Assembly (NCBI GenBank): GCA_015680905.1
Contig: CM027384.1
Coordinates: forward strand, 75,177,501-75,241,500
From: Coptis chinensis
Taxonomy: Eukaryota; Streptophyta; Magnoliopsida; Ranunculales; Ranunculaceae
DNA: 64,000 nucleotides
Direction: 5' to 3'
Part shown: piece by piece, positions 13,733-63,060 of the stretch
How positions within the stretch are numbered: position 1 is the stretch's first letter
How the letters are laid out: each line of letters begins with the position of its first letter
Notes under the pieces: generated by a model
Database searches by the model: none
What the model saw: the letters and a program-made list of their open reading frames with translations, nothing else
Told to the model about the DNA's origin: nothing
Translations under genes and position numbers: made by a program

Positions 13733-13785
13733 GGGAATTGCTATATCTGAGACCCCCATATCTCTCAAAAGGGACCCCATTAAAA
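13733..13785 (+). repeat. Left TIR of MULE 1
   Basis: It begins GGGAATTGCTATATCTGAG and continues with CCCCCATATCTCTCAAAAGG and GACCCCAT, matching the reverse complement of the right end with a few differences and a 1-bp gap. Confidence 0.8.
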
Positions 13786-15820: not shown

Positions 15821-15853
15821 TTTCTCGTTTTGGATAGCTGATCTAAATTGTTT

Positions 15854-17420: not shown

Positions 17421-17429
17421 TTGTTCCCA

Positions 17430-19251: not shown

Positions 19252-19518
19252 GACTATCCCTGTAATACGTCAATAGCTAACAATAGTCAAATTTCAATTA
19301 CAACCCAAACTTTATGATGCAAGACAGAAAATGCAAGCTTTTAACTATGCCATGAAAAACCGATGATTTTTTTGTAAACTATATATTAATTATAAGCACT
19401 CGAAGTCTCTCAATCAAAGACTGTTATTAAATGACAAGTGATACAACAATCCCAACATCTTCATAATCTTATCCAAAATAATATTCTATTTGTCAAACGG
19501 ATGTCAGAAAACATCTCA

Positions 19519-19796
19519 CACAAAATTTTCATGAACTAGCTGTGCTATAAATCTCTCTGGCTCAGATGATATTATCACCAATCGGGTTTTCTCTCAGGTT
19601 TTACCAAGATAAGTGATCAAACAAAGCTGTTTGGAATTTATGAATATGTAGTGACCAAACACAAAACGCAGCAATCCAATACCATTTTCAAACGAATCAA
19701 GCTCATAAAGAGACTAAAAAGATACCCACACAACGATCATGTCCATAAGACTATGACCCTTTGAAGATATTAAATATAAAATCTTAGAGTATGTGA
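19519..19796 (+). repeat. 278-bp direct repeat, copy 1
   Basis: It starts in ACAAAATTTTCATGAACTAG and ends in AATCTTAGAGTATGTGA. A nearly identical copy lies about 1 kb downstream at 20,514-20,791, upstream of the PMD gene inside MULE 1. Confidence 0.85.
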
Positions 19797-20513
19797 AAAT
19801 CCCTGCGCTATATACTTGCAACTTCCACAAGACGTGCGATAAAAATCAACTACAACTAAAGAATCAGTTTCGTTGGCCTTCTCAAGGATTTTGGAAAATT
19901 CTGCATCTGTATTAAATTTCTATGACACATTCAACCGGACAAAGATCATCATATTCGTCCAATAATTCTCCTGAAATATCTTGAGACATACTCTTGAACT
20001 TCGAGCGATGGAAGTTTCTGTTTATTTTGTGAACTTTCATGCTTAGGTTCAACTGATCGAAGGAACTCTGGACCTTAATAGCCAAAATGTCAAAGTATTC
20101 GTGCTTGGCAGAAAGTTGGGAAGTAGACAAGCAAATCCCAGATGAATTTGTCCATCTGAAATTTTATTGACTGGACCCCTAGAGCTCAGAAAAGTCTGCC
20201 TTTGCATTACGTAAAAGGGATAAAAACTTTGGAAGTAGCCAAAAAATAATATCTCCAATCTCTGAATATTGCTCGGAGATGAAGCTGTTACAAGACGAGG
20301 TTTCAAGTGATGCTAACATCTATAAGGACGAGTACCTCTTCGAGTCATTTACTCACTCCATTAGTTGAATGCCTAATGAAGCATATAATGATCAGTCCTA
20401 TGGCAGATTCGGATTAATAGAAGAACGAAACATATATATCCCCTCTTTCACATTCAAACAAATTGCCATATATCATCATCAACTAGTATAATATAACCTC
20501 AAAATTGCATTCA

Positions 20514-20791
20514 AACAAAATTTTCATGAACTAGCTGTGCTATAAATCTCTCTGCCTCAGATGATATTATCACCAATCGGGTTTTCTCTCAGGTTTTTCC
20601 AAGGAAAGTGATCAAACACAGCCGTTTGGAATTTATGAATATGTAGTGACCAAACACAGAATGCAGCAATGCAATACCATTTTCAAACGAATCAAGCTCA
20701 TAAAGAAACTAAAAAGATACCCACACAACGATATGGTCCATAAGAGTATGACCCTATGAAGATATTAAATATAAAATCTTAGAGTATGTGA
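20514..20791 (+). repeat. 278-bp direct repeat, copy 2
   Basis: Second copy of the 19,519-19,796 segment, differing at about a dozen positions by eye. The DNA between and around the copies (19.8-21.6 kb) has no convincing gene. Confidence 0.85.
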
Positions 20792-21627
20792 TTAATGGGA
20801 AAACACTTCTAAGAAATATTCTCACTACAAAAATGTTATTTGATGCAAATAGTAATAAAGAAACATCTTCTCGCCATTCAAACACTCAAATATAATAAGC
20901 TTTGATCAATCTCAATCCATATCCAAATCCATATCCAAATCGAAACTTCAAAAGAAAAACATAGCATGGTCTCTAAAGTATCCACCTTATTACACCTGGA
21001 ATCTTAAACAATTGAATTAAGAAAGAGAAAAACAAGAAGTATTTTGTTGAGTACAAACCTTTACTCAAAGAAACAGAGTCAGAGAAGCTTTTGAGGCGAT
21101 ACGTTGATTTTGCACATTTGAGACCTTCTAAACCTCATAAGATAATGTAGCGAAAACACTCAAAATATTAAAACTTGCAACAACAGATTTACATTCAATG
21201 CCTTAAATAAAAGAAATGCAGCACCATGTCATAATAACTATACCATCAATCATCAAAAAAGAAGTTCATAAAAATGCAAACTTGGAACACTAAACTCACT
21301 TCAAATCACCGAATGCATTAAAACCCAACAATGGGTAAACTCAAATTCAATATAAACGATAGAAAACATAATAAAACACATGAAAATAATAATGGGAAAA
21401 AAGTAGTTCATAAAAAAGTCATTTTTTTACCGACAAAGTGAGCGTTGAAACGATGATATTAACCAGAGAAGAAGAATTAAAGGATAAACAAGTTCTTATT
21501 ACCTTAAACACTTGGTTTTTTTTATTTTAGAGAAGGAGGAAGAAAGTGAAAGTGAAAAAAGAAAACAATGTTATTGTTTTTGGGGTGTGCCCAACGACAA
21601 TTTTAAGTTTGGGGTCTGCCTTGAGAA

Positions 21628-21692
21628 AAAATGGGGTCTGCCTTGAGATGGGGTCTGCCTTGAGAGATATGGGGTATGTACATAGTCCTTTC
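21628..21692 (-). repeat. Right TIR of MULE 1
   Basis: Read on the minus strand it gives GAAAGGACTATGTACATACC, then CCCATATCTCTCAAGGCAGA and CCCCAT, followed by further copies of the CTCAAGGCAGACCCCA unit. It is the partner of the left TIR. Confidence 0.8.
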
Positions 21693-45047: not shown

Positions 45048-46195
45048 CAATTTGTATCCTGGCTGACGTGGTGATACTGATACAGTTGCCGGCTATAGGA
45101 GACATAGCCGATACCTGATGGTCGAGTAGGATTGTTGTTGCTTTTTAAAGGTTTTTTTTTTTTGGGGGGGGGATCTATTCTACGAGTCGTTATTGTGCAA
45201 ATTTAAGTAGGAGGACTAATCCTACAAGCAACTTTTTGACATAATGCAATTGGGAGTTTAGGAGTCGTTATTTTGCTAAGTAACCCCTGATGTCTGATGA
45301 AATTGCAAATAGTGTACTGAGTGATTTTCATTCTGACATGGTTGTCAGATATGTTGATGGTTTTTGAATGTTATATGGTATGTTTTAATGATAATTGACA
45401 CAATAGTAGATGAATAATCTCAGGTTTAAGCAGTGATAAGATTGTTGTTGGCTTGTTGCATTTAAGGCAGCCAGCATGTAGGCCTCTGTTCCCTGGTTGT
45501 AGTCCATCACTCCATCCCCCGTTACAACCATTTATTTTTCAATTATTTACGATAAAGCAGGGGATTCCTGTTTTATAAGGTACCCTTTGGGAGATTGCAA
45601 ACGTTGAGATTAATCAGATTACTATTCTCCTTTTTGGTCCTGCTTTGATGGTCAGACAATTAAGTTTTGTAAAATACGTCTATAACGTCAGTCTCCCCCC
45701 TGCAATTATGGATAGGAATGTAGGTAAAGGACTTTGGTTAGTTATAATCAGTTACGGCTATTATTTTGTTCTTTAGCTCCCTGACTATATCATCATTTCT
45801 CTCCATAAGCACCACACAGTGGCTTATGCCTTACGGTGCCAATTCCCAAAAGGTTTGTACTTTGTAGGGATGAGTAGAAAAGGTGCATGGAAGGAAGCCA
45901 TTCCTGCTCACAACATACTCTCTGCTTGCTTGACCACTTGCAAGGGAAGGAATAGGTGCACAACGGTGTCCCCAACACCACACAGAAAGCACACTCTTTG
46001 GTATAGAGATTCCATGATTCTGCAGGCAAAGATTTGTACAACAGAAGAACTGCACTTTTGATACAGCCTTTTTCCAAGGGAAGCAAGTTGGCATTGCTGC
46101 TGTTGTCCATGCATTTTCCTCTCTAATCTTTAACAGTGAGACCTATACTGAACGATCCCTTCTTTTCCCACAACCAGTTCCATTAAGGTAGTTTA
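45048..46195. other. No gene recognised
   Basis: Intergenic DNA with homopolymer runs (T then G near 45.16 kb). Overlapping minus-strand frames at 45.8-46.1 kb were examined; the Cys-rich translation has no family resemblance that I trust. Confidence 0.4.
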
Positions 46196-46289
46196 ATTGG
46201 GCATTCCTCCCCCCCCCCCCTCAAAAAAAAAGAAATATTACAACTTTGCCATCAAAGTCCAGGCCCAACAACCAATTCAACCGGTCTCA

Positions 46290-46790
46290 CCATAAAAAAC
46301 CCCCAGGCCGTTTGAGTGTATACTCAAACGGTCTCGTCATGTCGTTTGAGTATGCACTCAAATGATACCGCCATGTCGTTTGCGTATACACTCAAACGAT
46401 ACCGCCATGTCGTTTGAGTGTACACGCACTAGGTTTGAGCCTGTCGTTTGAGAATTGGCCCTTTGGAATCTCCATGGAACGGTTTGAGCATGGCGTTTGA
46501 GTGTACACTCAAACGGTACAACCATATCTTGAGTGTATCCCATGGAACGGTCTGAGCATGGCATTTGAGTGTACACTCAAACGGTACAACCATATTGGCG
46601 TTTGAGTGTACACTCAAATGTCATGCTCAGACCGTTCCATGGAGAGTACACTCAAGCGGCTTGACCATATCGTTTGAGTGTGCATTTAAACGGTTAGGCA
46701 ATGTCGTTTGGTATCACATGCAAGCGGTATGGCTAGGTCGTTTGGGGCTTCTATGGGGCGATATGGTGAAGTCGTTTAGACTAAATAATT
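46290..46790. repeat. Array of palindromic CGTTTGAG units
   Basis: A run of units mixes CCGTTTGAGTGTACACTCAA palindromes with CCATGTCGTTTGAG and GGTACAACCATAT. Related units (ATGGCTGGGTCGTTTGGA) recur at 48,655-48,790, and the theme matches the palindromes in the 11.3-12.0 kb element. Non-coding. Confidence 0.85.
46540..46642. repeat. Near-perfect hairpin, 44-bp arms
   Basis: The arms at 46,540-46,583 and 46,599-46,642 are reverse complements at 43 of 44 positions (CCATGGAACGGTCTGAGCAT start, one G/A mismatch), with a 15-base loop. Each arm holds its own perfect palindrome (TTGAGTGTACACTCAA). Confidence 0.9.
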
Positions 46791-47194
46791 GAGAAGTTAT
46801 AAACCAAGGAAATTCCTGATTAACCAATGATTGGCCCGATTAATCAATAAAAATTGATTACATAAACACCAATTACACTTTTCTTATACATAAACACCAA
46901 ACACTTTTCTTATAATACAAATCATTAATCGATCATAATTGTATAATAATTTATTTAAACAATTATCCGCAATATTGAATTAGTAATGATCAATTATTAA
47001 CACATCTCAATTGAATTAGGAAAATTGAAATCCGATTTAAAAAATTGGGTTAGGAACAACACAATTAGTTACACTAACACAATTACATGCACTCTGCACC
47101 CTTTATATGTTATGAGATAGTATCTATATAACAAAGTTAAAACATGTAATCAAACATGCCAAAATCTAAAATAATGTAATCAAACATGCCAAAA

Positions 47195-48180
47195 TCTAAA
47201 ATAATAATTTGTTTTATATCTAAACTTGTTATTTTTCATTTTTTTTTCAATTGTGAATCATAAACTAGTTTGGGGTTTTGGGTTTGGGGTTTGGGGTTTA
47301 GGGTTTACAAATTTCGTACTAACATATTTCACTTAATTATTCGAAATAATAATTTGTTTTATATCTAAACTTGTTATTTTTTAGGGTTTTATAGACTTTA
47401 GTCCTATGCATAGTTGGTTTATTAAACTTTGGTTTAGAAAAACTTGAATATTATACTTTAGTCTTAGTTATGTTTGTTTATCGTTAGACTAACGGTGAAC
47501 AAACAGAACTAGGACTAAAGTCTAATATTCAAGCTTTTATGGACCAAAGTCTAATAAACCAACTATGCATAGGACCAAAGTCTAATAAACCAACTATGCA
47601 TAGGACCAAAGTCTAAAAAGCCCTATTTTTTATTTTATTTTTCAAATTGTGAATCATAAATTAGTTTGGAGGTTTAGGGTTTAGGTTTCAGGGTTTTCGA
47701 ATTTCGTACCAACATATTTCACTTAATTATTCGAAATAATAATATGTTTTATATCTAAACTTGTTATTTTTTATTTTATTTTTCAAATTGTGAATCATAA
47801 ACTAGTTTGGGGTTTTGGGTTTAAGGTTTAGGGTTCAGGGTTTATCAAATTTCGTACCAACATATTTCACTTAATTATTCGAAATAATAATTTGTTTTAT
47901 ATCTAAACTTATTATTTTTTATTTTCTTTTTCAAATTGTGAATTATAAACTAGTTTGGTGGGTTTGGGGTTTAGGGTTCAGGGTTTACGAATTTCGTACT
48001 GACATAAAAAAAATTTAATTTCAAACATATTTCACTAAATTATCCAAATCTAAAATAATAATTTATTTTATATCTAAACTTGTTATTTTTCATTTTTTTT
48101 TTTAATTGTGAATAATAAACTAGTTTGGGGTTTAGGGTTTAGGATTTACAAACATATTTCACTCAATTATTCGAAATATA
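47195..48180. repeat. Tandem array with telomere-like GGGTTTAGGGTTT motifs
   Basis: Five to six units of about 130-140 bp share TAATTTGTTTTATATCTAAA, CTTGTTATTTTT, TTGTGAATCATAAACTAGTT, a GGGTTTAGGGTTT stretch and TTTCGTACTAACATATTTCA. The GGGTTTAGGG parts resemble the plant telomere repeat but are short and imperfect, so this is an interstitial satellite rather than a telomere. One unit is interrupted by a foldback element (47,384-47,627). Confidence 0.85.
47384..47627. mobile_element. Foldback MITE inside the tandem array
   Basis: The left end reads TAGGGTTTTATAGACTTTAG then TCCTATGCATAGTTGGTTTA. The right end read backwards is TAGGGCTTTTTAGACTTTGG with the same continuation. Near the right end a unit of about 30 bp is duplicated. 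The two arms meet near a GTTAGACTAACGG core. It breaks the TTGTTATTTTT part of an array unit; flanking T-runs hide any target duplication. Confidence 0.8.
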
Positions 48181-49020
48181 TCAAAATTTCAAATATCTCT
48201 ACAAGAATATTCAAGTTCCACATTTACTCCTCCTTACTCCTTACATAGAATACTCAAGTCTCTCTACATAGAATACCCAATGAAAATCCTAAATGGAACA
48301 TGAAGATGAAGAAAAAACATTTTAGGTAATGCTTAAGGTGCAACAACAAATTAGAGAATGAGAAAATAGAAGAAATGTTGAAAGTGAAGAAGTGACACAA
48401 AATGTTGAAGGTGAAGGTGAAGGTGAAGAAATAGAAGAAATAGAAATGCGACTAGTCGAGCAAATGAGATGCCGAGAAATCGTTGACGACAAAGACAAGC
48501 AAACCTAAATAATGAGGTAACATTTGATTAGAATGAATACAAAACACTTGATTGATTGAATTAATGAATGAATCTACAAAAGAGCATTGATTAGAATGAA
48601 TGCAAATCACTTGATTGATTGATTGAATGAATGAATGCAAAACCCGAGCCCAAATGACATGGCTAAGTCGTTTGGGGACACTATGGAACTACATGGCTGG
48701 GTCGTTTGGATCCTTTATGGAACTACATAGCTGGGTCGTTTGGACCCTCTATGGAACTGCATGACTGGGTCGTTTGGACTAAATTTAGTGAGAAGTTAAT
48801 TTTTTTGGTGACTTTGAAATCCCTCATTACCTAAATGCAAATTGTTTGAGACTCTTGTTTTATTCTATATGTAGGATTCTTTGCCGCTATCCGATAACTG
48901 ATCCTCTGCAAACTCGAATGACGTGGATTGTCAACCGATTTTAAGTAATATAACATAAATTTTTACTACGAAAGAGGTATGATGGAGTAGGCATTGATTT
49001 TTTTTTTTTAAATTTTCTAA
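48181..49020. other. MULE 2 leader region; possible transposase 5' exon, uncertain
   Basis: This holds a purine-rich stretch (48.3-48.5 kb) whose plus-strand reading is rich in Glu and Gly (NVEGEGEGEEIEEIEMR) and could be an acidic N-terminal exon, as in MULE 1. Stops prevent a firm model. The palindrome-related units follow at 48.65-48.79 kb. Confidence 0.35.
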
Positions 49021-49063
49021 ATATAATTTTATTAGTGTATTAATAATAGTTGTTGTTTTTTAT

Positions 49064-50930
49064 GTGTTTAAGTCTTTCATACACGTAGCGAGGCACTCGG
49101 TTGGGCAACCGCTAGAGGAAAACAAGTTAATGTTCAAGATCATTGAAAAGTCGGAGTGTGCCAAGGGAAACCGAGTAGCAAGATTGAATTTGGCTTGCGA
49201 ATGCTCATGTGTGTATCGGTCACACAAGAAGGAAGGCGAAGGGAGGGCTAATAAGAGAAGGTCGGGAACCAAGAAATCGGGATGTCCATTTAAGTTAAAA
49301 TGTGTTTTCCAACACGGCACTGTCGATAGTTGGAAAATAAAAGTTAGAAATGGAATTCACAACCATGTATTGGCGAAGACCCTTGAACGACATGCATTTG
49401 CTACTCGTCTGACCGTTCTAAAGTTCGAGTACTTGTCAAAGATGAGTAAGTGTGGAATAAAGCTTAAACAAATTTTGGATTCCATCAAGAATAGGTATCA
49501 TGAAAACATATCTAGTATATCCCAAGTCTACACTGCAAGGCAGAAGGTGAGGAAATTGGATATGAATGGTCTCACACAATTGCAGAGATTGCGTGAGTTG
49601 TTAGCAAAAGAACATTATTTTGAAGAGTTAAGACAAGATGAGAATACCGAGGAGATAACGGGGTTGTTATGGGCCCATCCAGAAGGCCTTAAGTTGGCTC
49701 GAACTTTTCCAACAGTTTTCATGTTAGCTACCTACAAAACTAACAGGTATCGGTGGCCTTTCGTACAGTTTGTTGGGGTGAGTTCAATGTGGAAGTCTTT
49801 CATCGTGTGTCAGGTGCTGTTTCAGTCTGAAATAACAGTCGACTATGAGTGGGCCCTGCATCAGTTTATTGGTTTACTTGGTGATATAAGCCCATTCGTG
49901 ATCGTGTCTGACAGGGACTTGACCTTGATGAGTGCCGCTGACAAAGTTTTTCCTAACGCACACAAGCATCTATGTAGATGGCATATCGCTACGTGCGTAC
50001 TTTCAAAATATTACGATATTTTTTCAATTACAGAACTTGTAGAGAAGAGCCAGTTTTCGTGAAACACTGTAGTCAAATAGAAGATAGAGCCTATTTTCCA
50101 GCGTAGATGAGATGCTTTGGAAAAATATTACAGGGTTGAGTACTCTAATTTTGTTAGTTATTTGCGAGAGACTTGGTTTTCTCACAGGGATCGATTCGTA
50201 TGTTGTTGGACTGACCAACACATTCACTTGGGGAGTACAACGACCAATAGAGTTGAAGGGTTTCATGCTCAGGTGAAGTGTGTACTAGGAAATGCAAATT
50301 GTCATGATTTTTTGAGTATGTTTAGCTTAATCCACCCGATTCTAGAGATCCAGATGTCCGAGATTAGAGCTACTTTCGAGAGGAGTATGATTATAACTCA
50401 ACACCACCACCAGATTCCTTTGTTTCGTGAACTCAGAGGCCTTGTCTCACGCAAGTGTTTATACTTACTATTTGAAGAAATAGATGCCCGCGTGAAGCAT
50501 GTTAAAGATGGAGAGATCAGGTGTTGGTGCTATTTGCGCACGAGCCATGGACTGCCATGTGCTCATGAATTAATTGAGTTCGTTTGAAGAGCAAGAGCGA
50601 TCCATCCCTTTGACTGCTATCGACCCCTTTTGGAAAACATTGTCTGCTTCTCCCAATGTGTCAGTGGGTGTTGGTCCCGATGTTACACCTTCGATCGACT
50701 TATTCATGAAAAGGTTTGCAATGGTTTCTGAAGAAGAGTAGAGGGTTATGATTAGGAAGCTTATGGAGATTGCCGTACCAAAAAGTACATGGCTAGTACC
50801 GCCTCGTGAGGAAGCAAAAACCAAAGGTCGGCCGAAACGTAGCTGTAGGAGAAAGCTTCCAACTGGAGATGAGAACTCTTCAAAGTGAGACCCATCTCAT
50901 TTTGAACATTCTCAACATGACCATGAGGAG
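49064..50930 (+). pseudogene. MULE 2 transposase (FAR1 DNA-binding, DDE core, SWIM)
   Basis: From about 49,064 the frame reads VFKSFIHVARHSVG, then the zinc-binding region KKSGCPFKLKCVFQHGTV with WKIKVRNGIHNHVLAKTLER. The DDE core follows: TYKTNRYRWPFVQFVGV, then PFVIVSDRDLTLMSAADKVF and HKHLCRWHIA. In-frame stops lie at 50,060-50,110, then reading resumes with DRFVCCWTDQHIHLGSTTTN and the SWIM finger IRCWCYLRTSHGLPCAHEL. After a further stop comes the DNA-binding-like TKGRPKRS. The first catalytic Asp, normally in DCTYKTN, is replaced (MLATYKTN). The protein would cut and re-insert the element, but the stops and the lost Asp make it inactive. It continues into an OTU domain. Confidence 0.9.
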
Positions 50931-50944
50931 TGGGTCTCGTCACA

Positions 50945-51160
50945 ACCAAACACTATGCCCACCCAAAACACCCACACCACACCAAGAAATAAGCCTTCTC
51001 TAAAAATACCAACCCAAAACACCCACACCACACCAAGAAATAAGGCTTCTTCAAAAACACCAAAAATAACCACACCAAGAAATAAGCCTTCTCCAAAAAC
51101 ACAAAAAAACAACCACACCAAGAAATAAGGCTTCTCCAAAAATAGCCACACCACGAAATG
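50945..51160 (+). repeat. Tandem repeat linking transposase and OTU domain
   Basis: Four to five units of about 40-50 bp contain ACACCAAGAAATAAGCCTTC and CCAAAAACAC. On the plus strand they code for a basic Thr/Pro/Lys repeat (TTPRNKASSK type). It works as a flexible basic linker if translated. Confidence 0.8.
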
Positions 51161-51540
51161 TGAAAGATGGGTTAAACTTTGGAAAGACAAGGGGTCCTAA
51201 GGATTACGGGTTGGATATTCTTGAAAAAATGCACAAATATATTGTTAGAGTCGATGAGCCTGTTGGCGATGGCAACTGCGGTTATAGAGCTTTCTGCATT
51301 GTATTAGGAAAAAGTCAAGAAGATTGGCCGCAGATGAGAAAGGACTTGTACTAAGAGCTTATTGGCAGCCTCCCTCTTTATTGTACTTTGTACTATCAAA
51401 ATGAGGTTGTTTATGCGATGAAGGAAACCCTACATGAAGAAGATTACGCACCCTTAAATAAGTGGATGAGCATCCCCTTTGCTGGATACCTATTTGCTTC
51501 AAGATTTAATGTTATCCTCCTGTATTTAGGAGCTCGTCAG
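51160..51540 (+). pseudogene. OTU-type cysteine protease domain fused after MULE 2 transposase
   Basis: The plus strand encodes YGLDILEKMHKYIVRVDEPV, then GDGNCGYRAFCIVLG with the D-G-N-C catalytic block of OTU deubiquitinases, then EDWPQMRKDLY. A stop at 51,352-51,354 interrupts; the frame then continues with YYQNEVVYAMKE, PLNKWMSIPFAGYLFASRFN and VILLYLG. The helix with the nucleophile Cys is complete. The C-terminal catalytic His region is missing, because sequence similarity ends near 51,540 just before the PMD gene. OTU enzymes remove ubiquitin chains. In MULEs, captured proteases (ULP1-like in the Kaonashi family) are known; the role here is unknown. Confidence 0.85.
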
Positions 51541-52954
51541 TTAACATATTAATAGAATAATATAATTAACATTAAAAGAATCTGCAAAATATTTAAGTTT
51601 TACCTGTAGAAGAGTCAAGAAGCCCGAAACACCTTTCACCATGGCAGTCCCAAGTCCTCTATACATAAAGGCCAAAATTGCTGCACCCTACGCATACTTG
51701 CCAATCTCACTGAATTTCAGCAACAACCTCAAATAATAAACAAGCACTCCAGTCCCAGACTTGTCGGTGAAAATGATACATCTAAAGAAAAACCGTAGAT
51801 AAGCTCTTACTTCCCGCTGTACCTCCACCAAAGTCGACACCTTCCCCTTTACATTCCTATCTTTATCCTTATTGCAGACCTTCCCAGCAAACTAGCTCCG
51901 CAGGAATTCCAGCCTTACCTTTGAAATGAATCGGCTAGCGTCCATCTCCGCTTTAATCACAGGCAGCGAGACACCCAGAGCACAGTATATGTAGGAGACT
52001 TTCCAATTGTTCACGGGTCAACTCCGTGTTCCCTCTCACTGCTCTGCCTCTAATTGCAATGCATAGGATTTGGGAGACATCATCCAAAGTCACAGTCATC
52101 TCCCCAAATGGCATATGGAAGATGTTGGTCTCTGGATGTCACCTCTCCACAAACGCAGAGACCAACGCCGGATCTTGATGTTTGTAGCACCAAAATACCA
52201 GATCATAAAACCCAGTCCTCTTAAGCTTATTTTCAAATCTGGGAGATCTTTTGAACTCATTCTTGAGATCCCATTTGCTTAACTTGGATAGATGCGGAAC
52301 GCACTTCAACACTCCGCGCTCTGCCTGAAACAACAAAGACTCAATGAGGAGAAGCAAAAGGTTTTTTAAAGACAAAGAAAAATCAAGATACTAAGTCTAT
52401 GATAATACCTTATTTTCCCAAACATCATGAGCCACATGCACCGAATAGTCATACAGAAGCTCTGACTCAGTAGGGCCACCACCATATACACCTCGTGTGT
52501 ACTCCAAATCACCCTTGGATTTTCTCATATAGTCTACCATTGGTGGTGCTTTGACTTCGACTGGTGCTTCAACTTCCATCAATTCTTCCAAATCATCATT
52601 CTCCTCTTCATCACCCTCTTCATCACCAGACTCTTCCCCATCATCTCCATCCTCACCTGAGTCATCTCCATCATCAACTATACTCTTCTCACGATCCATT
52701 GCTACATTTACATCTACATCTAAATCTTTATCTACATCATCTAAATCTTTATCTACATTAATATCACCCTCACTCTCAGTTTCACTCTCACTCTCACTCT
52801 CAGTATCTACATTACTCGGAACAACCTCATTGTGGTCCCCTCTACGCACTGAGGCTGAGGTGCCCGCACTCCTTTTTCTCTTATTCTCTCCTTCTACATC
52901 ACCTACATTCGTAGGATCATCATCTGCTTTTCTATCACCTCTACGGATTGAAGC

Positions 52955-53429
52955 TGTTTCGGCACTAAACTGCTTCAACACAACGAGAGCAATGGTAAAG
53001 AACGCACTAAGAAACAGAGGAATTTGATGTTGGGGGAGATGAAACTGAACCAAATAATGGCTGCCTACGTACCCAAGATCTATTCTCTAGGGATCAAGTT
53101 TCCACGTAGTTTCTTATGAAAAATAATGTGGTATTTATATAGGTAGAGTAGAGAGTCCTTGTAGCTCAAGTAATCTTGTAGCTTGAGTAATTGTGATAGA
53201 ATATAACTGTCAACTGATAATTATCTCTTTGATAATAAATGAATCTGGACATAAATTAATGTACATTAGTGACAAGCCATGTGGCTAAGGTTCAGCCTTA
53301 GACACATGAGTTAATGGGCCTGTACATCGATTCATGGTATTGCGAATTGGGCTTTAGCCCTGTCGATTAAATGAATAAAGTGGAGACCCCTACTAATGGA
53401 CATTTGACACGTAGGTGGGGGTCGAAACA
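52955..53429 (-). repeat. 3' LTR (475 bp)
   Basis: TG...CA ends; matches the other LTR apart from about ten substitutions and two gaps (about 7 and 10 bp). It contains TATTTATATAGG near 53.13-53.14 kb. Confidence 0.92.
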
Positions 53430-53445
53430 CCACCCCCTCTTTGGC
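53430..53445 (-). promoter_or_regulatory. Polypurine tract
   Basis: Directly before the 3' LTR the minus strand reads AAAGAGGGGGTGG, the expected plus-strand primer. Confidence 0.85.
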
Positions 53446-53930
53446 ATGCGAACAAATGTCATATGGCAAAGAAGAAAGAAAAATGAGCGGAATGTATAAC
53501 GAAGTGTCGTGCGAAAAGAAATAATTGGAAAATTGACTGTCGAAAAAAAATCGTGAATTAGCGGAAACGAAATAATGTCAAACTAATTATAACGGGGACG
53601 CAATGTAGTTAAATAAAATATGGCCGAAAATGCACAGAAAAAAATAAAATATGCACAGAAATAAAATTGCAAAAAAAGTCGATTATTAAAACTGCATCAA
53701 CGAGCAGCACGAATAATATCTGAAATTTGAATTCGACGATGCGTGCCAACGGAAGAGCGATACTTGGATTATACCGTTGAAAATTAAACGTAGGGGCAGT
53801 TTAGTAATAATAGTAATAAAAGGAAGTTAAATACTAATTGGACTCAAAGTGTTCGGATGAGATAAGAATGTGGAGGAGATAAGAATTGAGATTAAAGATG
53901 AAGTTGGATTTAGAAAAGAATCCCATCGAA
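53446..53930. other. Non-coding part of the retrotransposon near the 3' LTR
   Basis: AT-rich DNA without open frames between the polypurine tract and the antisense TATA box. Confidence 0.5.
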
Positions 53931-53946
53931 CCGAAAATTTCGACCC

Positions 53947-54446
53947 CTATATAAGTCTTGGCGCGTAGATCAAAACAAATCGTGGTTAAGAAAAGTTTTG
54001 AAGTCGCAGAAAACTTATCCTCTTCCGTATTATTGCCGCTCTAGAACGCTGTGTTCCGTCTCAATCAGGTACGTTCTCTCACCATCAGCTCTTCTCATAT
54101 ATCTCGTTTTGACATCTAACTCATCAAGCCTGTGGGAGTAGGAGATATCACCAAACACCCCTTGGCCCCTGAAGATTCAACATGTCTAGGTGGGGAGCGC
54201 GGGTGGTGGTATGAGCTAGATTTATCTTGTCGAATTCGGAGAAACCAGATGGTAAGAAATAAGGATAACTCGGAGGAGAGGCCGGATGATAAGAAGGTGA
54301 CTTCCCTGCCTGCTTGTGAAGTGGTCGGGCTAGCAGGGGAATACCCAAACTCTTTCTTCTCAACTGTGTTCCGCGTCCATCAAACAGGCACTGTTCAACC
54401 CATCTTGGATATTGATGTTTACGGTACGTTTCTACCTTCCTCGTAA
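53947..54446 (+). promoter_or_regulatory. Antisense TATA box and possible antisense transcription unit
   Basis: CCCTATATAAGTC at 53,944-53,956 is a strong plant TATA box on the plus strand, opposite to the element's own transcription. Downstream is a splice-like CAG/GTACGT (54,066/54,067), a possible acceptor before 54,129, and about 105 codons of complex open reading (VGVGDITKHPLAPEDSTCLG, RGWWYELDLSC, VFRVHQTGTVQPILDIDVYG) ending near a GT at 54,421-54,426. There is no ATG before the open part, so it may be one exon or a decayed frame. Tat-lineage elements are known to carry antisense ORFs here. Identity unknown. Confidence 0.45.
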
Positions 54447-54636
54447 TAAGCCTTGTTGTTGTTGTTTTTTTTTCGTCTGCTTTCGCCTTTGAACGTTGGA
54501 ACTCTGTCCTTAGGATGTCTTCTATATGGAACATGTGGTGGCAACACAAAAAGGAAGACGTTTTTGGTGTTGTGCGCGACTTCTGCATGAGCTGCTGAAG
54601 AGTGAAGACGATGATGGCGCTGTATCCAAACCAATA

Positions 54637-54770
54637 TCAATCAAACATGATATGGTGCAACGCCTTCTAAGGAAGGGCATCGTAACCGCTCTTATATAAA
54701 CTGGTCCGGTGCATTCGGAAGACTTAGTAATAAACAAGATACGGTGAAACGCCCTCTAAGGAAAGGCACC
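54637..54770 (+). repeat. Direct repeat of about 45 bp, two copies
   Basis: Copies near 54,647-54,690 and 54,738-54,778 share ACGCC.TCTAAGGAA.GGCA and CGTA. A second TATA-like CTTATATAAACTGG lies between them (54,691). Confidence 0.6.
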
Positions 54771-55249
54771 GTACCTGTGTCCCATTGAGTTGGCCTGGTT
54801 CGTCCTTGACATAGTGAACCCGGTTTTCGAGCAATCTGACCTGATTTTGCTTTTTTTTGTGTGCAGGTAGAACTACCGTACTATACGGGGGAAAAATACT
54901 CGAGAAGAAAACTCGATGACGATCGCAGACTTAGTGAGGTGGAAAGAAGGTGACAGATATAACGACTACACGAGGCCACGGCATAATCTAGCTCAGGATC
55001 GAGCAGCTTCAAATTAGATCGGCTAGAATATTAAGCTTAAATTATTGAGTTTCGATAAAACTTAAATTTGGCCTGTTGAAGAAGACGAAGAAAACGGAGA
55101 AAAGTGTGGAGAATATGAGAAAGCGGTGTCGGAAACAGATATGTTATCAATTATCGTAAAATTTTGGTTAAGTCTGAAAGATTGACGAAAATATTTGTAT
55201 TTTTGTCGTAGGTTGAAACGGCGGAATTACGAGCAAAAGATATTGACGA

Positions 55250-55470
55250 AAAGTTTCGAGCGGAAAAATCTCAATGCCTTAGAAAAAATAAAGAAGCTGA
55301 AGAAAGGTTTTGCTCAGGGTGATCGCACGGCAATGCCGTAGAAGAAATAAAGAAGTCAGAGAAAATTTTCGTTCGGAAAGATTGGCTCAATAAAGCTGTC
55401 GGAATGATTCACTCAGAAAAATCGTCTCGTTGCCTTAGAAAAAATAATGAAGCTGGCGGAAAATATTTAA
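55250..55470 (+). repeat. Degenerate repeats around CCTTAGAAAAAATAA
   Basis: Three diverged copies of a unit with TGCCTTAGAAAAAATAA and GAAGCTGAAGAAA lie within the retrotransposon. They are non-coding. The surrounding 54.8-55.78 kb shows nothing else. Confidence 0.6.
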
Positions 55471-55782
55471 CCGAAAGCGCTAAGCAAAGCGAATGTAGAT
55501 TTCGAATAAGAAAACGAAGATTTAATCGAGCGACCATAAGACAATTGGCAGAAACAATTAATTAGGTAAATGTATGAATGTAATACCATAGAGCGAAAAA
55601 TTCTTTTGATGAAAAATAAAAATAAAGTATAGGTTTGCTATTGAATATTGTTGTTGTATCAGATAACATACCTGCAGAAAATTGACAATGTTGTAGATTT
55701 ATACAGTTGGAATGAAATAGAACGAGACGCCCCTACGTAGAGAAAAACGCCCCCAATGCGTACTTAATTTTGTAAAATTAGG

Positions 55783-56775
55783 CTAAGCGAGCATAAAAAT
55801 GTTCAAACTTAGGCTGACGAAGCTAAACGTGGTAACCTCGGTAGATTTTGTCGGAACAATAGTAACGAACTAAGCGAGTGTAAAAGCGTTCAAACTTAGA
55901 CTGGCGAAGTTAAAAGTAGTAACTTTGTCAGATTTTGTCGTAGCGATAGTAATGACTAAGCGAGCGTAAAAAACGTTCAAACTTAGACTGACAAAGCTAA
56001 ATGTGGTAACTTCGTCAGATTTTTTTTCGTAATGATAGTAATGAACTAAGCGAGCATAAAAGCGTTCAAACTTAAACTGACGAAGCTAAATGTGGTAACT
56101 TCGTCAGATTTTTTCGTAATGATAGTAATGAACTAAGCGAGCGTAAAAACGTTCAAACTTAGACTGACGAACCTAAATGTGCTAACTTCGTCAGATTTTT
56201 TCATAATGAGAATAATGAACTAAGCGAGCGTAAAAACGTTCAAACTTAAACTGACGAAGCTAAATGTGGTAACTTCGTCATATTTTTTCGTAATGAGAAT
56301 AATGAACTAAGCGAGCGTAAAAACGTTCAAACTTAGACTGACGAAGCTAAATGTGGTAACTTCGTCAGATTTTTTCGTAATGAGAATAATAAACTAAGCG
56401 AGCGTAAAAACGTTCAAACTTAAACTGACGAAGCTAAATGTGGTAACTTCGTCAGATTTTTTCGTAATGAGAATAATGAACTAAGCGAGCGTAAAAACGT
56501 TCAAACTTATATTAACGAAGCTGAATGTGGTAACTTCGTCAGATTTTTTCGTAATGAGAATAATTAACTAAGCGAGCGTAAAAACGTTCAAACTTAAACT
56601 GACGAAGCTAAATGTGGTAACTTCGTCAGATTTTTTCGTAATGATAGTAATGAACTAAGCGAGCGTAAAAACGTTCAAACTTAAACTGAAGAAACTAAAT
56701 GTGGTAACTTCGTCAGATTTTTTCGTAATGATAGTAACGAACTAAGCGAGCGTAAAAACGTTCAAACTTAGATTG
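55783..56775 (+). repeat. Tandem array, about 87-bp unit, 12 copies
   Basis: Units contain CTAAGCGAGCGTAAAAACG, TTCAAACTTAGACTGACGAA, GCTAAATGTGGTAACTTCGT and CAGATTTTTTCGTAATGA. Starts fall near 55,783, 55,872, 55,953, 56,045 and then every 86-88 bp to 56,741. Central copies are the most alike, as expected from unequal exchange. The inner CTGACGAAG/CTTCGTCAG pair gives each unit a small inverted repeat. It lies where integrase would be expected. Confidence 0.95.
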
Positions 56776-56849
56776 ATGAAAAGATGACTGCAAAAGTGAT
56801 GTGTCTTGATCCTTTTCTTCTAACGGCGGCAGAGGAGATAAGCCAATGA

Positions 56850-57235
56850 ATATGCATGACGTAAGTCATTTCGGGGTCTTTGAGTGATAGAGATGCTATC
56901 AAATTGTCGAGCAAGACTATGTATCAAACTAAGATAAGCCGCCATATGCTCATCTCTTGCTTCAAAAGACCCACCAAACTGATTGGCAACAAGGCAAGAA
57001 TCTGTGTTAACAGGAGCTTTCGCGCCCCCAGTGTCAAAGCTGTTCTCAAGGCACAAATGGCAGCCTCATACTCGGCTTCGTTATTTGAAGCGGCGAAGCT
57101 AAGTTTGCGTGATTTCCCAATCTTTTCTCCGCCGGGTTTAACAAAAAATGCATCCAATTCCAGACCCAGATTTACTATGGGAGCCATCTGAGTAAACAAT
57201 CCATAGGTCAATGGGATTAGGAATTGTGTTTTCAT
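56850..57235 (-). pseudogene. Gypsy RNase H domain
   Basis: The minus strand reads NLGLELDAFFVKPGGEKIGK then AASNNEAEYEAAICALRTAL and TLGARKLLL, the RVT_3-type RNase H with the NNEAEYEA block. An 80-codon frame continues to about 56,820 (PVNTDSCLVANQFGGSFEAR) in another frame. This is the last coding segment before the array. Confidence 0.85.
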
Positions 57236-57420
57236 GTTGGTCTTCGCCGCCCCCGGTTATATTGGCATCGTCTTCCATAGATTCTTCCCGCACAAGAAAT
57301 CGTCAATAGGAGAATCATCAATCGGAAAATCAGCTATCAAAGAAACCAGAGCATGTCCTTTTTCAGTAGTACGACTTTCAAAGACAATGCTATGTGCACT
57401 AAGATAACTTTCCCATTCGG

Positions 57421-58190
57421 CTAATCTACTTGATTCTTGTGCATTACGAAAGATCTTGCGTAAGGGATTTTCAGTATAATTCTGACCAACCTCCCCTGGA
57501 AGTATGGTTTCAATCGGCGAGCGACATGAACCAATGCAAGTGCAATTTTTTCCATCTTTGAATAACGAGACTCAGCTCCGGTTAAAGTCTTACTGATAAA
57601 AAAGATGGGTCTACCATCATCAATGAAAAGAACAACACTAACAGCTTGAGGTGTAGCTGCCAGGTATATGCCACTAGGTTGACCCGGTGAAGGACTTGTC
57701 AATATAGGAGGACTGACCAAGTATTTCTCCAGTTGTTGCAATGCCATCTCACAATCAACGTTCCAAGTTTCCGCCCCCTTTAAAGTCTGGAAGAAGGGAT
57801 GACAACGATCGGAATATTTAGAAATAAATCTATGAAGAGCGTCAAGCCGACCAGTAAGTCGTTGAATTTTCTTCTTATTTTTTGGTGATGGCATATCAAT
57901 AACAACGCGTATCTGATCAGGATTAGCCTCAATACCTCTACGAGTCATGAGGTATCCCAAAATTTTTCCAGAAGAGAGGCCCAAAAGAACATTTGGCGGG
58001 ATTGAGTCTCATGTTATACTTGTTAAGCCTATCAAAAACAAGTTAAAGATCGGAAAGATGATCACCCGTATCCTTCGATTTAACGACTATATCATCGATA
58101 TAAGCCTCCATTATTTTTTCAAGCAGATCAGAAAAAATTGTATTGAAGAGTGAAATCCATTTCACCCAGAAGATTTAAACAGATAGACGC
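57421..58190 (-). pseudogene. Gypsy RT, C-terminal part with connection/RNase H-like domain
   Basis: At 58.08-58.13 kb the minus strand gives MEAYIDDIVV, the catalytic RT box. A 187-codon frame follows: SSGKILGYLMTRRGIEANPD, then LTGRLDALHRFISKYSDRCH, then PIFFISKTLTGAESRYSKME, ending in ARRLKPYFQ. The N-terminal half of RT is missing: at about 58,190 the sequence jumps to a duplicated piece of gag (compare 58,189-58,330 with 59,305-59,455). So the element lost protease and half of RT by deletion. Confidence 0.88.
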
Positions 58191-58319
58191 CCCCGGTCGA
58201 GCCTATGTGGAAAATGACACCTGCCATTACCTCTTACAAGAGTTAGAGATTTTAGGCGGTACACACTTTCGGGTCCGACTGGAGATTGTCTTTTTCTTTG
58301 TGTGTAACCAACCTATCTA

Positions 58320-58810
58320 GGTCGGTAGTTTGTCTGGGATTGTGGTTTTCCCTCTAGTTGCTTCTGTGACACCTTCCATCCCTGCCTGGTCGGACCTGTC
58401 TGGGATGGCAGTTTTTCTCAAATCTGCGAGGTCGGCCTTCCCTGTCAGGTCGGTCCAGTCTAGGATGAAGGTTTTCCTTATACTTTTTTTCGTGACGCCT
58501 TTTTTCCCCAATGCGGGACGGACTGTCTAGGATGGCGATTTTCCATAAATCTGCGAGGTCGGCCTTCCCTGTCAGGTCGGTCCAGTCTGGGATGAAGTTT
58601 TTTCTTATACTTTCTTCCGCGACACCTTGTTTCCCTGTCTGGACGGACCTGTCTAGGATGGCGATTTTCCGCAAATCTGCGAGGTCGGCCTTCCCTGTCA
58701 GGTCGGACCAATCTGGGATGAAGTTTTTCTTTATACTTTCTTCCGCGACGCCTTCTTTCAGAGGTGTTTGTACCGCCGTTTGCGGTAGCGGCGGCAGCGG
58801 TGTTGCTGCT
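58320..58810 (-). repeat. Tandem repeat in gag tail, about 127-bp unit
   Basis: Three to four units contain TCTGCGAGGTCGGCCTTCCC and GTCCAGTCTGGGATGAAG. Read on the minus strand they code for a basic repeat (DREGRPRRF and NRHPRQVRPDRE), probably an RNA-binding gag tail. Confidence 0.85.
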
Positions 58811-58953
58811 TTCCGGCACCTAGTAACAAAAGTATATAACTTTTAGTCACGTTGTTGCTTGATGTTCAAAAGTGAGTCGACATCCTTTGGCGTCTTGCAA
58901 TTGTGGCGGGAACGATTAACAAACTGATTTTCTAGTTCATTGTATTGGTGAAT

Positions 58954-60078
58954 TTATCTTGAAGGCAACTCACTAAACCAGCGTAATGCTTCTCCCTTTA
59001 GAGTTGATGGAAAGAGCTTACACATGAGCGGATCATCTCCACCCCATAACACCAACTTATTTTTGAACAATAGAACATGCAAGCCAGGATCTCCTTCCGA
59101 CTCATTATAAAGTTCAAAATCGGGTTTTTTGAAATCGGGATGGTGGTAAGTTTCCTGAATGTCGAGCGAAAACTTATCAAGTACACCATCATCGACTGTC
59201 AAGTTTTCATTCTTACATCTCTTGACTCTCTATCGTTAAGTTCTTTTGTAATCAACTCTTTCAATTGTTGTTATGTTAGAGTTAAAGTATTGGCTCGAAC
59301 AACTGGACGCCCCCGGTCGTGCCCATGTGGAGAAGGATACCTTCCATTATCTCTTATTGGAGTTAGAGATCTTTGGCGCACGCATACGATCGACTCAATC
59401 GGGTGATTGTCTTTGTCTATCCCTGTAACGAGCCTGTCTAGGCCGGTAGTCACCCTTGGCCGGGTGGTCGGTATAATTATACCACTTCTCCATGTTTTGT
59501 TGCTCTTGTCTGGGATGCCCGCCTTTCCAGTCATGTCGGACATATCTCGGATGGCGGTCTTCCTTGAAATTGCTTCTCAGAGGTAAATCTTCCATTTGAG
59601 ATCGGACATGTTTAGGGTAGTAGTTATCCCTGCCAATCCGATTCTCCCCATAAGTACAGGTAATAGGGTCATCATTACTTTTAGAGTGTGCACTGGTTGA
59701 TTGTGTTTGAGAAATAACACGTTGTTGAGGACGATGAAGTGGATCTTCAAGACGGTCCCATACCTTTGGAATGGCTGCGTCCCCTTCGTGGTCGCCTGAT
59801 GTTGTTGAATTTGCAGCCTCGTCCACCGGCCTTTGCCTCTTTGCCAGATTCCTTCTGAAGTTCCTATTTCAAATTTTTGACTCATCGTAACTCACGCTCA
59901 ATCGTATTAGGAGTGGCGGTGGCGCTGCTACGGTTGGATGTTGAGAATTGATCTTACCACTAGGAGCAACTTGATTGTTCAACGGTTCTTGCATTGGCCG
60001 ATTTGAATTTCGAAGGTTGCAATTCCTATTAGCAGGAGGAATATGTTGACTATTTGGTATGCTTTTTGTGCTTACCAT
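58954..60078 (-). pseudogene. Gag of the 7.6-kb gypsy element
   Basis: It starts at an ATG 35 bases inside the primer-binding site (60,078; MVSTKSIPNSQH). It runs through frameshifted pieces (DRLEDPLHRPQQRVISQTQ; YTDHPAKGDYRPRQARYRDR) to the conserved capsid part at 58,954-59,202: KKPDFELYNESEGDPGLHV, LMCKLFPSTLKGEALRWF and SELPSRS. The last block (LF...L.G.A..WF..LP) is the retrotransposon gag signature. It is broken by several shifts and would package the RNA. Confidence 0.82.
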
Positions 60079-60112
60079 CTTGATTGTTTCACGTGATAAT
60101 GAATTCTAAAGT

Positions 60113-60129
60113 CCCCACAGACGGCGCCA
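60113..60129 (-). promoter_or_regulatory. Primer-binding site
   Basis: Four bases inside the 5' LTR the minus strand reads TGGCGCCGTCTGTGGGG. TGGCGCCG-type sequences at this place are typical plant gypsy tRNA primer sites. I do not assign the tRNA. Confidence 0.8.
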
Positions 60130-60133
60130 ATTA

Positions 60134-60591
60134 TGTTTCGGCAGTAAACTGCTTCAACACAACGAGAGCAATGGTAAAGAACGCACTAAGAAACAGAGGA
60201 ATTTGATGTTGGGGGAGATGAAACTGAACCAAATAATGGCTGCCTACGTACCCAAGATCTATTCTATAGGGATCAAGTTTCCACGTAGTTCCTTATGAAA
60301 AATAATGTGGTATTTATATAGGTAGAGTAGAGAGTCCTTGTAGCTCAAGTAATCTTGTAGCTTGAGTAATTGTGATAGAATATAACTGTCAACTGATAAT
60401 TATCTCTTTGATAATAAATGAATCTGGACATAAATTAATGTATATTAGTGGCAAGCCATGTGGCTAAGGTTCAGCCTTAGACACATGAGTTAATGGTATT
60501 GATTCATGGTATTACGAATTGGGCTTTAGCCCTGTCGATTAAATGAATAAAGTACTAATGAACGTTTGCCACGTAGGTGGGGGTCGAAACA
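60134..60591 (-). repeat. 5' LTR (458 bp)
   Basis: This is the LTR next to the primer-binding site, so it is the 5' LTR. It is 17 bp shorter than its partner because of two gaps near the outer end. Confidence 0.92.
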
Positions 60592-60743
60592 GAAGTCGTT
60601 GTTTTCGACCCCCTATCTCTCTTCTTGTCAAGCTTAGGCGCGTCACCGCGACCCGAAGAGAAACCGCCGCCACCAAACAACTTCTTTACACCCTTGAATA
60701 TATTTTTCACTACATTCTTGATATTCTTTGATCGAGGACCCAT

Positions 60744-63060
60744 TGCTACAAAGAAAAATAAAACAAGTATTAGTAACTATAATAAGTTTAATCAAATATA
60801 TACCTATGTTACAAACTTGGTCACTCACACAAGTGACCAAGTTACCCAAATGCTAAACATAACATAACATAACTTCAACCACCCCAATTCAGTCCCCTCT
60901 ACCATTAACATCCAACAAATACCCAAACAAAAACAATGAAATACAACTACTAATTGAAACCAAGTACTTAAGAACCAACAAGTGCTCGACGAGTCTTTTA
61001 GAGACAATTTGCAACAATTAATAAGTTACATAAAAAGCAGGAAGAGTTGGATACAACACTGGGAAAAACCATAACCAAATAAACCCAATTAAACAGTAAA
61101 TCAAATCACAGAACGTCGAAAACTATCACCAATCAAATGGATAGCATTTAAGGGGTGCTTTCAAAGTGCCAACAAATGCAAACAGAGTTCATACCGAACA
61201 AAATGCATTCGAGACACAAACTACTTGTACTTATCTAGAGTGCTTTCAGTGTCCACAATTGTCATGTATTCAAGAAAAAAAATACAATTGTCAGGGCAAC
61301 AAATAGAATGTGACGCGCCCAATGTTTTTGATGCATACTTCCTACATAACGTTTATATTCCTAAATATTTGCATTTAACACTCTCTTCCTTATCCTATAC
61401 CAATTTAACATTGCTCCATCTTGAAAACATAGCATCATAGATCCCATTGAAACCATCTAATATAATCTTTGAAATTAAAGATCCGTTAGACATTTCGAAC
61501 TATGCCAGCATTATTCATAGAAAACTGTATATTGCGAACCTAGGCTCATAAGGAAGAAAAGGTCACTATCAAGATTACAATAAGAAGATGCAATAATTTA
61601 CTATTTCTAACAACTAGACCATTTCCATTAAGCTACTAATTAATGTCAAATCCATATTTAAACCAAAAAAAAAATACTTACAAAAAACATCATAGACACA
61701 AACTACTTGTTCTTATCTAGAGTGCTTTAAGTGTCCACAACTAGGTGCGCTTTCAGTGTATCAACGATTACCGTCAACGATTCAAAATGATAGCATTCCA
61801 CTATACGCTAGGTGCTTATAAATCAATACACTGAAAGTACTAGTGGAATGTAAGCGTATAGTGGAATGTAGCACTTATAAACTCAAGATAAGTAGCGTAT
61901 AGTGCTTTCAATGTATCACCTAGTACCTAAGTGCTAAATGATTACCATCAACGATTCAAAATGATTACTATTAAGAAAGATTCTTAGCCGTATAGTCCAC
62001 ACCTCAATGATTTGAAGAGCTTGGTTCGACGATGTGATAAAAGACAAGATTGATCAAATTAAAAAAAAAACACAAAATCACTGACTTACAAGCAAAATGC
62101 GAATGCCACAGTATTGCACTAGTTTACCTTGAAAATGCAGATCCAAATGCTGATTACAATCGGTGCCACAATCCAAATGTAGATCCAATATCCAAATGTT
62201 GTCCTTGAAAATGTTGATTACAATCGGTGCCACATATCCAAATGAAACTTGAATTAAAATGACCCAACCAAAATAAAGGTTGAATGTTTTGAGTTTGCTT
62301 ACCAGGAGACGACAGCTTGTGGGTCTTGAATTAAAACTACAAGAAAACAAGAAAACAAAGGTTTGGTTTTGAGTTTTTTTCGTTACAAAGCTCGAAGGGT
62401 TTTTTAGGCTTACGCGAGAGAGATGATACCGGTTGAGGTGGTTTTTCCGGTTTCGCGATTTAGGTGGGGGTGTACTGGGCTTTGCTGTTTGGGCTTGGGA
62501 TGGAGGCTGCCCAATCCAATTTGTGTGGCGCCCAATACAAGACTCTTCCATTAATCTTCTCATTGGATTTTCTAATAGTTTTGCAAGAGTTCTCACCTGT
62601 GTCACAATGTCAGCTTCCCAGTCATTAATAAGCTCTTTAGTATGATGACTCAGAGACTAAACCCGTTTTGAGCCGTGTTATTTTATAAACAATAGCGAAT
62701 CAACTTGCTACCTTCCATTCTCTATAATCTTCTCAATCTTAGGACTTAAGCATTTCCCTGTATCCATGTACGAGTAATACTATACACACCAACAGTTTTA
62801 CTAACAAACAACACTAACTGACGTGGTTACCCCAATTTCTGCTAACTAGGATTTCCACTAACAAAACAAAGCCTAAATAATTTTCGCCTCCGCTCTGTTT
62901 TATGAGTACTCCTGTTTCATTTCCAATTTTATTTTCCCTCCACCCATCGTGATTTCCACTAACAGGCAAAAAAAAACATGAAACTGTTAAATAAGAAGAT
63001 TAGAGAGAGAGATACAAATTCATCAAAATAACACCAAAATTAACTCGACTTTTGCACCAG
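60744..63060. other. Upstream region of the MULE 2 PMD gene; no gene recognised
   Basis: AT-rich DNA. A segment with ACAAACTACTTGTACTTATC and TAGAGTGCTTTCAGTGTCCA occurs at 61,216-61,256 and again at 61,697-61,737, followed by several short repeats of GTGCTTTCAGTGTATCA and GATTACCATCAACGATTCAA (61.74-61.96 kb). A 175-codon minus frame at 62,078-62,605 is low complexity and not convincing. A weak match to the MULE end repeat lies at 62,502-62,515. Confidence 0.45.

Follow-up and report, generated by a model that had tools for sequence, protein, structure and literature searches.

Introduction

MuDR is a Mutator-like element (MULE) that carries two convergent genes and makes a 9-bp target-site duplication (TSD), and its second gene, mudrB, is not known to be related to the second gene described below. 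Plant databases probably hold MULE-SWIM-OTU proteins. Here we describe two MULEs with a convergent two-gene design like that of MuDR, MULE 1 and MULE 2, which lie in a 64,000-nucleotide stretch of Coptis chinensis DNA (assembly GCA_015680905.1, contig CM027384.1, positions 75,177,501 to 75,241,500), referred to as the window. In these elements a FAR1-type transposase with an OTU-like domain at its C-terminus converges on a gene encoding a plant mobile domain (PMD) protein. Because this second gene faces the transposase, the design recalls both KI-MULE and MuDR.

Several described elements share parts of this architecture. The Kaonashi (KI-MULE) and VANC-KIU elements of Arabidopsis are likewise MULEs with a ubiquitin-like-protease, and Ulp1 is found in melon, rice and grape MULEs as well. 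KI-MULE carries Ulp1 antisense to mudrA (PMC2528002), whereas here the protease-like domain is OTU-like and sense-fused to the transposase; unlike KI-MULE and VANC-KIU, the present elements have terminal inverted repeats (TIRs), and their antisense gene encodes PMD. No Ulp1 family was listed for those element proteins that were scanned with Pfam. PMD-C proteins of grasses and Amborella are likewise encoded by MULEs and, according to Ikeda et al. 2017 (PMC5418596), form a fusion with the transposase; in the present elements PMD lies on the strand opposite to the transposase, as a separate convergent gene and not a fusion of that kind, in an element that also has an OTU-like domain. Ginger1 likewise has an OTU domain at the transposase C-terminus, but its transposase is Gypsy-integrase-like, and the available portion of its description (PMC2836005) lists it from animals and makes no mention of PMD. 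OTU domains have been described on transposases of Ginger1 and in Helitrons of animals, and Ulp1 and PMD in MULEs. We found no MULE with an OTU domain, nor one with both OTU and PMD, in a literature search whose coverage mostly excluded subscription journals. PMD and protease domains are known in MULEs separately; in the present elements they are united in one architecture common to diverged families.

Results

MULE 2 is one element carrying both genes

MULE 2 is a single MULE that spans 46187-62545 and is flanked by a perfect 9-bp TSD, its ends having been set by comparison with other copies (Table 1). Both ends were found in five of the nine copies in hand (the window copy, L035, L036, L038 and L041), and in all five 8-9 bp agree directly abutting the ends. 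The duplications of L038 and L041 are weaker, because the agreeing 8 bp consist of A and T alone and lie within 9-10 bp matches with one mismatch. MULE 2 therefore has the TIRs and the duplication of about 9 bp expected of a MULE, as does MULE 1 with 10 bp. The OTU-like domain, the transposase and PMD share one TIR/TSD-bounded element, and this single unit rules out the placement of transposase and PMD in separate elements. A first-pass annotation of the window had proposed a FAR1-type plus-strand transposase converging on a minus-strand PMD gene, with OTU and PMD in one element; PF10551, tblastn matches to the PMD parts and the perfect TSD bear this out, although the proposed limits, 46196-62515, fall 9 and 30 bases short.

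PF10551 scores 65.5 bits in the window and 72.2 in copy L042, above the Pfam cut-off of 27.6. The transposase frame of MULE 2 is broken by stops at 50060, 50585 and 51352 and by frame changes, so the continuous reading from SWIM and TKGRPK into OTU that had been proposed does not exist in the window; in L042 and L037 the OTU-like domain is in frame with the transposase or linker. When 40 places, including the window's own, were scored with a 48500-53100 query, 37 of the 39 other copies lost their match to the window at 51539-51541 and two lost it earlier (C8:21675303 and C2:69887118), because the window has lost what those 37 copies carry next. Longer copies continue past this point with the rest of the OTU-like domain (NHFVNVEL in L036, L039 and L040) and then with the PMD gene. 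Thus, the window copy has an internal deletion at 51541/51542. The DGNC block is intact, as first annotated, but the domain is cut at 51541; read from its sequence, it is without its second half, including the putative catalytic His, and this copy of MULE 2 is dead.

The PMD gene of MULE 2 runs on the minus strand from an ATG at 60743, a start codon read from the sequence, to 51542, and is interrupted by a nested long terminal repeat (LTR) retrotransposon. For the PMD exon of MULE 2 in the window, tblastn gave the only match; PF10536 exceeds its Pfam cut-off of 34.9 bits in MULE 1 (67.7), L036 (124.1), L041 (119.7) and L042 (81.3). A search of PDB with the L036 PMD gave nothing useful. The LTRs of the nested retrotransposon are 94.1% alike over 475 columns, and its target duplication, GAAGC/GAAGT, has one mismatch; an 87-bp tandem repeat of 11.4 copies lies inside it at window positions 55783-56780.

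MULE 1 is a deletion derivative of an OTU-bearing family

MULE 1 has inverted repeats at 13754-13780 and 21648-21674, and is 33-47% identical to MULE 2, by piece, in the FAR1-type part and 38-51% in the PMD part. No MULE core or OTU-like match was found inside it. Relatives elsewhere in the genome share the window blocks 13755-15119 and 15138-17423, separated by 2.7-2.8 kb in four pairs (C2:51974033, C3:103218636, C5:92974064 and C7:24765201), by 9.6 kb at C8:79634106 and, in a shorter match, by 0.7 kb at C6:18247384. An OTU-like place lies inside the gap in all six. In the C5 relative, 1.4 kb of the gap encodes a transposase C-terminus, a linker and then an OTU-like domain in which DGNCGFRA and NHY occur; this domain is 34% identical by tblastn (E 9e-34) and 38-41% in alignment. 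On this comparison of sequences MULE 1 belongs to an OTU-bearing family and has lost its OTU-like stretch by internal deletion. Being a deletion derivative with OTU-bearing fuller relatives, it offers no contrast to MULE 2: the reading of MULE 1 as an OTU-less sister design is ruled out, and the first-pass annotation was wrong to assign an OTU fusion to just one of the two MULEs. Both elements in the window are dead, the remnants of two families of this kind.

Without the gap, the window matches end to end at three places (the window itself, C8:75169585 and C7:17874070), and at a fourth, C8:90541592, in two overlapping pieces, from which it follows that the deletion derivative has multiplied. 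The copy at C8:75169585-75174251 (G000) lies outside the window, about 21.7 kb upstream of MULE 1; it is a 97% copy of MULE 1 that matches window 13755-18400 end to end and has the same internal deletion, and represents either a neighbouring insertion or a segmental duplication.

The convergent layout recurs in diverged groups

The genome searched comprised 935.6 Mb. A protein search with the MULE 2 OTU-like domain gave 1634 candidates, of which the best 150 were scored, all at least 74% identical to the query (the MULE2 group). The MULE 1 OTU-like query gave at least 151 matches, from which 148 listed places were used after two second fragments were dropped; 47 of these match at 60% or more (the MULE1 group) and the rest at 37-46%. 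A further class, "other", consists of the 67 of these weaker listed matches that fall outside the MULE2 list and may include some MULE2-like copies. Two PMD queries listed 139 matches (two second fragments were set aside, leaving 137 places) and 143, together 221 places, and a further PMD search listed 150 matches, giving 145 places after five second fragments were dropped.

Among the matches listed, a convergent PMD lies within 6 kb at 82/150 places of the MULE2 group, 15/47 of the MULE1 group and 18/67 of the other class, and within 12 kb at 23/47 listed places of the MULE1 group. Up to 12 kb, no listed OTU-like place has PMD solely in another orientation. With PMD placed at random, 0.34 pairs would be expected at 6 kb (264 OTU-like and 336 PMD places listed). 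With the 221 PMD places, 80 of the 150 OTU places have a downstream PMD on the opposite strand within 6 kb, where random placement expects 0.15; no other orientation occurs within 6 kb, and two same-strand neighbours lie 10-11 kb away. This pairing is a lower bound, because L039 and L040 carry PMD by DNA yet are unpaired in the lists. Furthermore, the PMD half of the window matches seven of eight long copies that were fetched (L035, L036 and L038-L042).

Two observations weigh on the other side. There is no listed PMD within 6 kb of 149/264 listed OTU-like places, and in the eighth long copy, L037, the part that was read shows no PMD; a PMD place is listed 8.9 kb past its OTU-like domain.

The layout extends to more distant copies. 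The open stretches read in L051 and L052 measure 200 and 193 residues and belong to reported frames of 688 and 683; a convergent PMD follows at 2679 and 3677 bases, respectively, on the downstream side; L051 is 64-70% identical to the MULE2 domains and L052 is 52% identical to L051. The MULE2 family is large, and the convergent layout is common to at least three diverged groups; many copies besides that of the window thus have both OTU and PMD, and neither of the findings that the first-pass annotation had named as contrary, separate TIR-bounded elements or the lack of any other copy with both, was obtained.

Two types of PMD half accompany one transposase-OTU half

The PMD halves of the copies are of two types, A and B. 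When seven copies are compared, the identity between A and B is mostly 0.91-0.95 along the transposase-OTU half, the same as within groups; in the two leftmost intervals compared it is 0.83-0.89, and group A is low there too. Just beyond the OTU stop, A-B identity drops to 0.58-0.78, against 0.76-0.93 within groups across the PMD gene; farther right, all copies vary. A right flank of 1.5 kb was at hand for 29 copies. Of these, 20 match a PMD half, five of type A and 15 of type B (seven of the 20 being the reference copies themselves), and nine match neither within the flank. The drop in identity past the OTU stop and the two PMD types indicate that the halves have separate histories, and the presence of two PMD types beside one transposase-OTU half indicates that the modules recombine.

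Discussion

Possible roles of the two proteins

In this design, gene 1 encodes a transposase with FAR1-type DNA-binding, MULE-nuclease and SWIM parts, followed by a basic repetitive linker and an OTU-like cysteine protease domain as its C-terminus, and the convergent gene 2 encodes a PMD protein. We give about an even chance to the proposal that this is a conserved two-gene MULE design in which the OTU-like domain and PMD counter host silencing and ubiquitin pathways. Fusion to the transposase would bring a deubiquitinase to the ends of the element, where it might strip ubiquitin from the transposase or from element chromatin and so shield the complex or the locus. The PMD protein could mimic, or compete with, the host PMD silencing proteins MAIN and MAIL1, and the two activities together would keep the element expressed or mobile. 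Ikeda et al. 2017 suggested that MULE-borne PMD has a role against silencing, a process in which MAIN and MAIL1, the host's own PMD proteins, take part (PMC5418596). The KIU/VANC genes of VANDAL MULEs are reported to hypomethylate related elements (PMC13317346). The arrangement of OTU-like end and PMD perhaps helps these elements to cope with host silencing. A bolder version, which we regard as rather doubtful, holds that a plant MULE lineage keeps a paired counter-silencing kit, in which a transposase-tethered deubiquitinase is combined with an exchangeable PMD that interferes with MAIN/MAIL1, and that the swapping of PMD halves is the trace of an arms race.

The strongest competing explanation, unlikely but deserving serious consideration, is that neither protein counters silencing: the OTU-like domain would serve transposition itself, whether in the stability of the transposase, in disassembly of the complex or in signalling for repair, and PMD would be a DNA-handling or assembly partner comparable to the second gene of MuDR-like elements. 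MuDR has a convergent second gene, and the OTU-like domain forms the C-terminus of the transposase, both of which fit such a role. Additionally, Ulp1 and OTU domains on transposases have been suggested, in the description of Ginger1, to act in transposition or repair (PMC2836005). The silencing functions of MAIN and MAIL1 (PMC5418596) instead point PMD toward the control of expression.

Identity of the C-terminal domain

We consider it likely that the C-terminal domain is an OTU domain, because of its motif and a set of individually weak matches obtained with pooled profiles. DGNCG[YF]RA and H[FY] are preserved across identities of 38-70% in L050, L051, L052 and the MULE2 group, and the Cys or His is altered in single decayed copies; we take the DGNC Cys and the downstream His with its aromatic residue to be the OTU catalytic positions. 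A profile pooled from all groups gave 13 PDB matches at E<=10, eight of which bear OTU-domain, OTUB2 or VCPIP1 names, although none is significant alone (best E 0.29); a ninth, 5jze, is presumably a viral OTU domain. With hhalign, alignment of the DGNC block to four OTU sequences gave P 0.0042 and a reported probability of 8%; thinner profiles gave P 0.077 at the DGNC block and P 0.015 at another place.

The alternative that this domain is specific to MULEs and has its DGNC block by chance, and is not an OTU protease, is improbable in view of these pooled matches, the DGNC alignment and the preservation of the Cys and His regions across groups, but a number of results weigh on its side. No OTU family reached its Pfam cut-off: PF02338 was never listed for any OTU-like protein scanned, and C65 (otubain) scored at most 18.8 bits against a cut-off of 24.3, with below-cut-off E values of 0.05-0.27 for the window fragment, L042, L039, the consensus and L051, and of 0.0012 for L052. 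In L039 the unrelated DUF3305 (E 0.026) outscores C65, and for the OTU-like pieces of L036, L040, L023, L018 and L050 Pfam listed no OTU family at all. Searches of PDB with single groups were also without OTU: the MULE2 profile alone had one match, not an OTU, the MULE2 consensus had none, and L050 matched ten chains, none of them OTU. Two AlphaFold2 models, built from 8 and 15 rows, had predicted confidence scores (pLDDT) of 34 and 39 and were unusable. An NCBIfam search with the domain found nothing, and viral contigs scanned with the OTU-like profile held no relative. PF02338 itself matches four places in the genome, none among the listed MULE2 places; one of them, L001, reads as a host OTU gene.

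Selection on the OTU-like and PMD proteins

Within the MULE2 family, the ratio of non-synonymous to synonymous changes relative to expectation, computed on 30 copies for singletons and shared changes, was 0.80 and 0.76 in the FAR1 part, 1.04 and 0.91 in the transposase, 1.10 and 1.23 in the SWIM and linker region, and 1.03 and 0.83 in the OTU-like domain. Change within the family is mostly neutral decay, and the near-neutral ratios weigh against the proposed design. Between groups, NG86 ratios of non-synonymous to synonymous rates (dN/dS) for the OTU-like domain are 0.34-0.50 for L051 and 0.31-0.43 for L052, each against the same seven copies, and 0.21 for L051 against L052 at dS 1.9; five within-family pairs give 0.47-0.75, so that NG86 may run low here, and pairs with L050 are at or near saturation. 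For PMD, compared in five copies of type A, that of the window among them, and three of type B, fixed A-B differences comprise 48 synonymous and 70 non-synonymous changes, 0.52 of the neutral expectation, against 68 and 177 (1.14) within lineages (Fisher p 0.016, one test, eight copies). The between-lineage dN/dS of about 0.3-0.5 for the OTU-like domain and 0.52 for PMD indicates that both have been kept as proteins. Values below 1 were what the first-pass annotation had named as support for a cargo module; both proteins do belong to one element and show such values between lineages, but the word cargo is doubtful for the OTU-like domain, because it is the transposase's own C-terminus. That both are functionless passengers, passively captured as in Pack-MULEs, is disfavoured and very improbable: many copies are broken, within-family ratios are near neutral and the capture of gene fragments is frequent in MULEs (PMC13317346 and PMC2528002), but diverged groups share layout and orientation, between-lineage dN/dS is below 1 for both proteins, and the OTU-like domain remains in frame in L042 and L037.

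Other features of the window

Four further open reading frames (ORFs) were characterized by eye: one with a ubiquitin-like stretch (7429-7959, minus strand), a 561-residue ORF like a LINE reverse transcriptase (26434-28116, minus), one resembling a Harbinger-type nuclease (31011-31421, plus), and a 323-residue ORF like an F-box/LRR protein (42597-43565, plus).

Table 1. Window coordinates of the parts of MULE 1, MULE 2 and the nested retrotransposon
Feature	Position	Strand	Remarks
MULE 1	~13733..21691		perfect 10-bp TSD CCCAAATTAA at 13723-13732 and 21692-21701
MULE 1 FAR1-type N-terminus	14741..15119	+	remaining transposase and OTU-like domain deleted
122-bp tandem array at MULE 1 deletion point	15120..15815	+	sequence comparison
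MULE 1 PMD gene fragment	18338..18829	-	PF10536 over 18338-18754
MULE 2 left TSD TTCCATTAA	46178..46186		identical to 62546-62554
MULE 2 outer left TIR GGTAGTTTAATTGGGCA	46187..46203	+	GGTGATTCAATCGGGCA in L035 and L037; inner part shortened
Subterminal repeats with CGTTTGAGTGTACACTCAAACG palindromes	46309..46785	+	common to other copies
FAR1-type N-terminal part of MULE 2 transposase	49072..49582	+	86-87% amino acid identity to L042
MULE transposase core and SWIM region	49586..50590	+	PF10551; stops and frame changes
Transposase C-terminal part and repetitive TTPRNKPSPK-like basic linker	50574..51195	+	leads into OTU-like domain; sequence comparison
OTU-like fragment, DGNCGYRA	51196..51541	+	DGNC at 51268-51279; ends before putative catalytic His
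Internal deletion junction	51541..51542		fuller copies continue with OTU-like domain end and PMD 3' part
PMD domain exon, decayed	51595..52330	-	tblastn; L036 homologue matches PF10536
PMD gene, acidic upstream coding part	52400..52954	-	cut by retrotransposon
Nested LTR retrotransposon	52955..60591	-	LTRs ~52955-53429 and 60134-60591; RNase H 57424-58008
PMD gene, 5' end past retrotransposon	60592..60743	-	same coding start in L040-L042
MULE 2 right TIR	62505..62545	-	comparison with other copies
MULE 2 right TSD TTCCATTAA	62546..62554		matches left copy

Implications

The OTU-like domain and PMD form one architecture in diverged MULE families, and both are conserved as proteins between lineages. 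If the proposed counter-silencing role is true, these elements would name host pathways, those of MAIN/MAIL1 and of ubiquitin, that transposons must handle, and their natural PMD variants would be available for asking what PMD proteins do.

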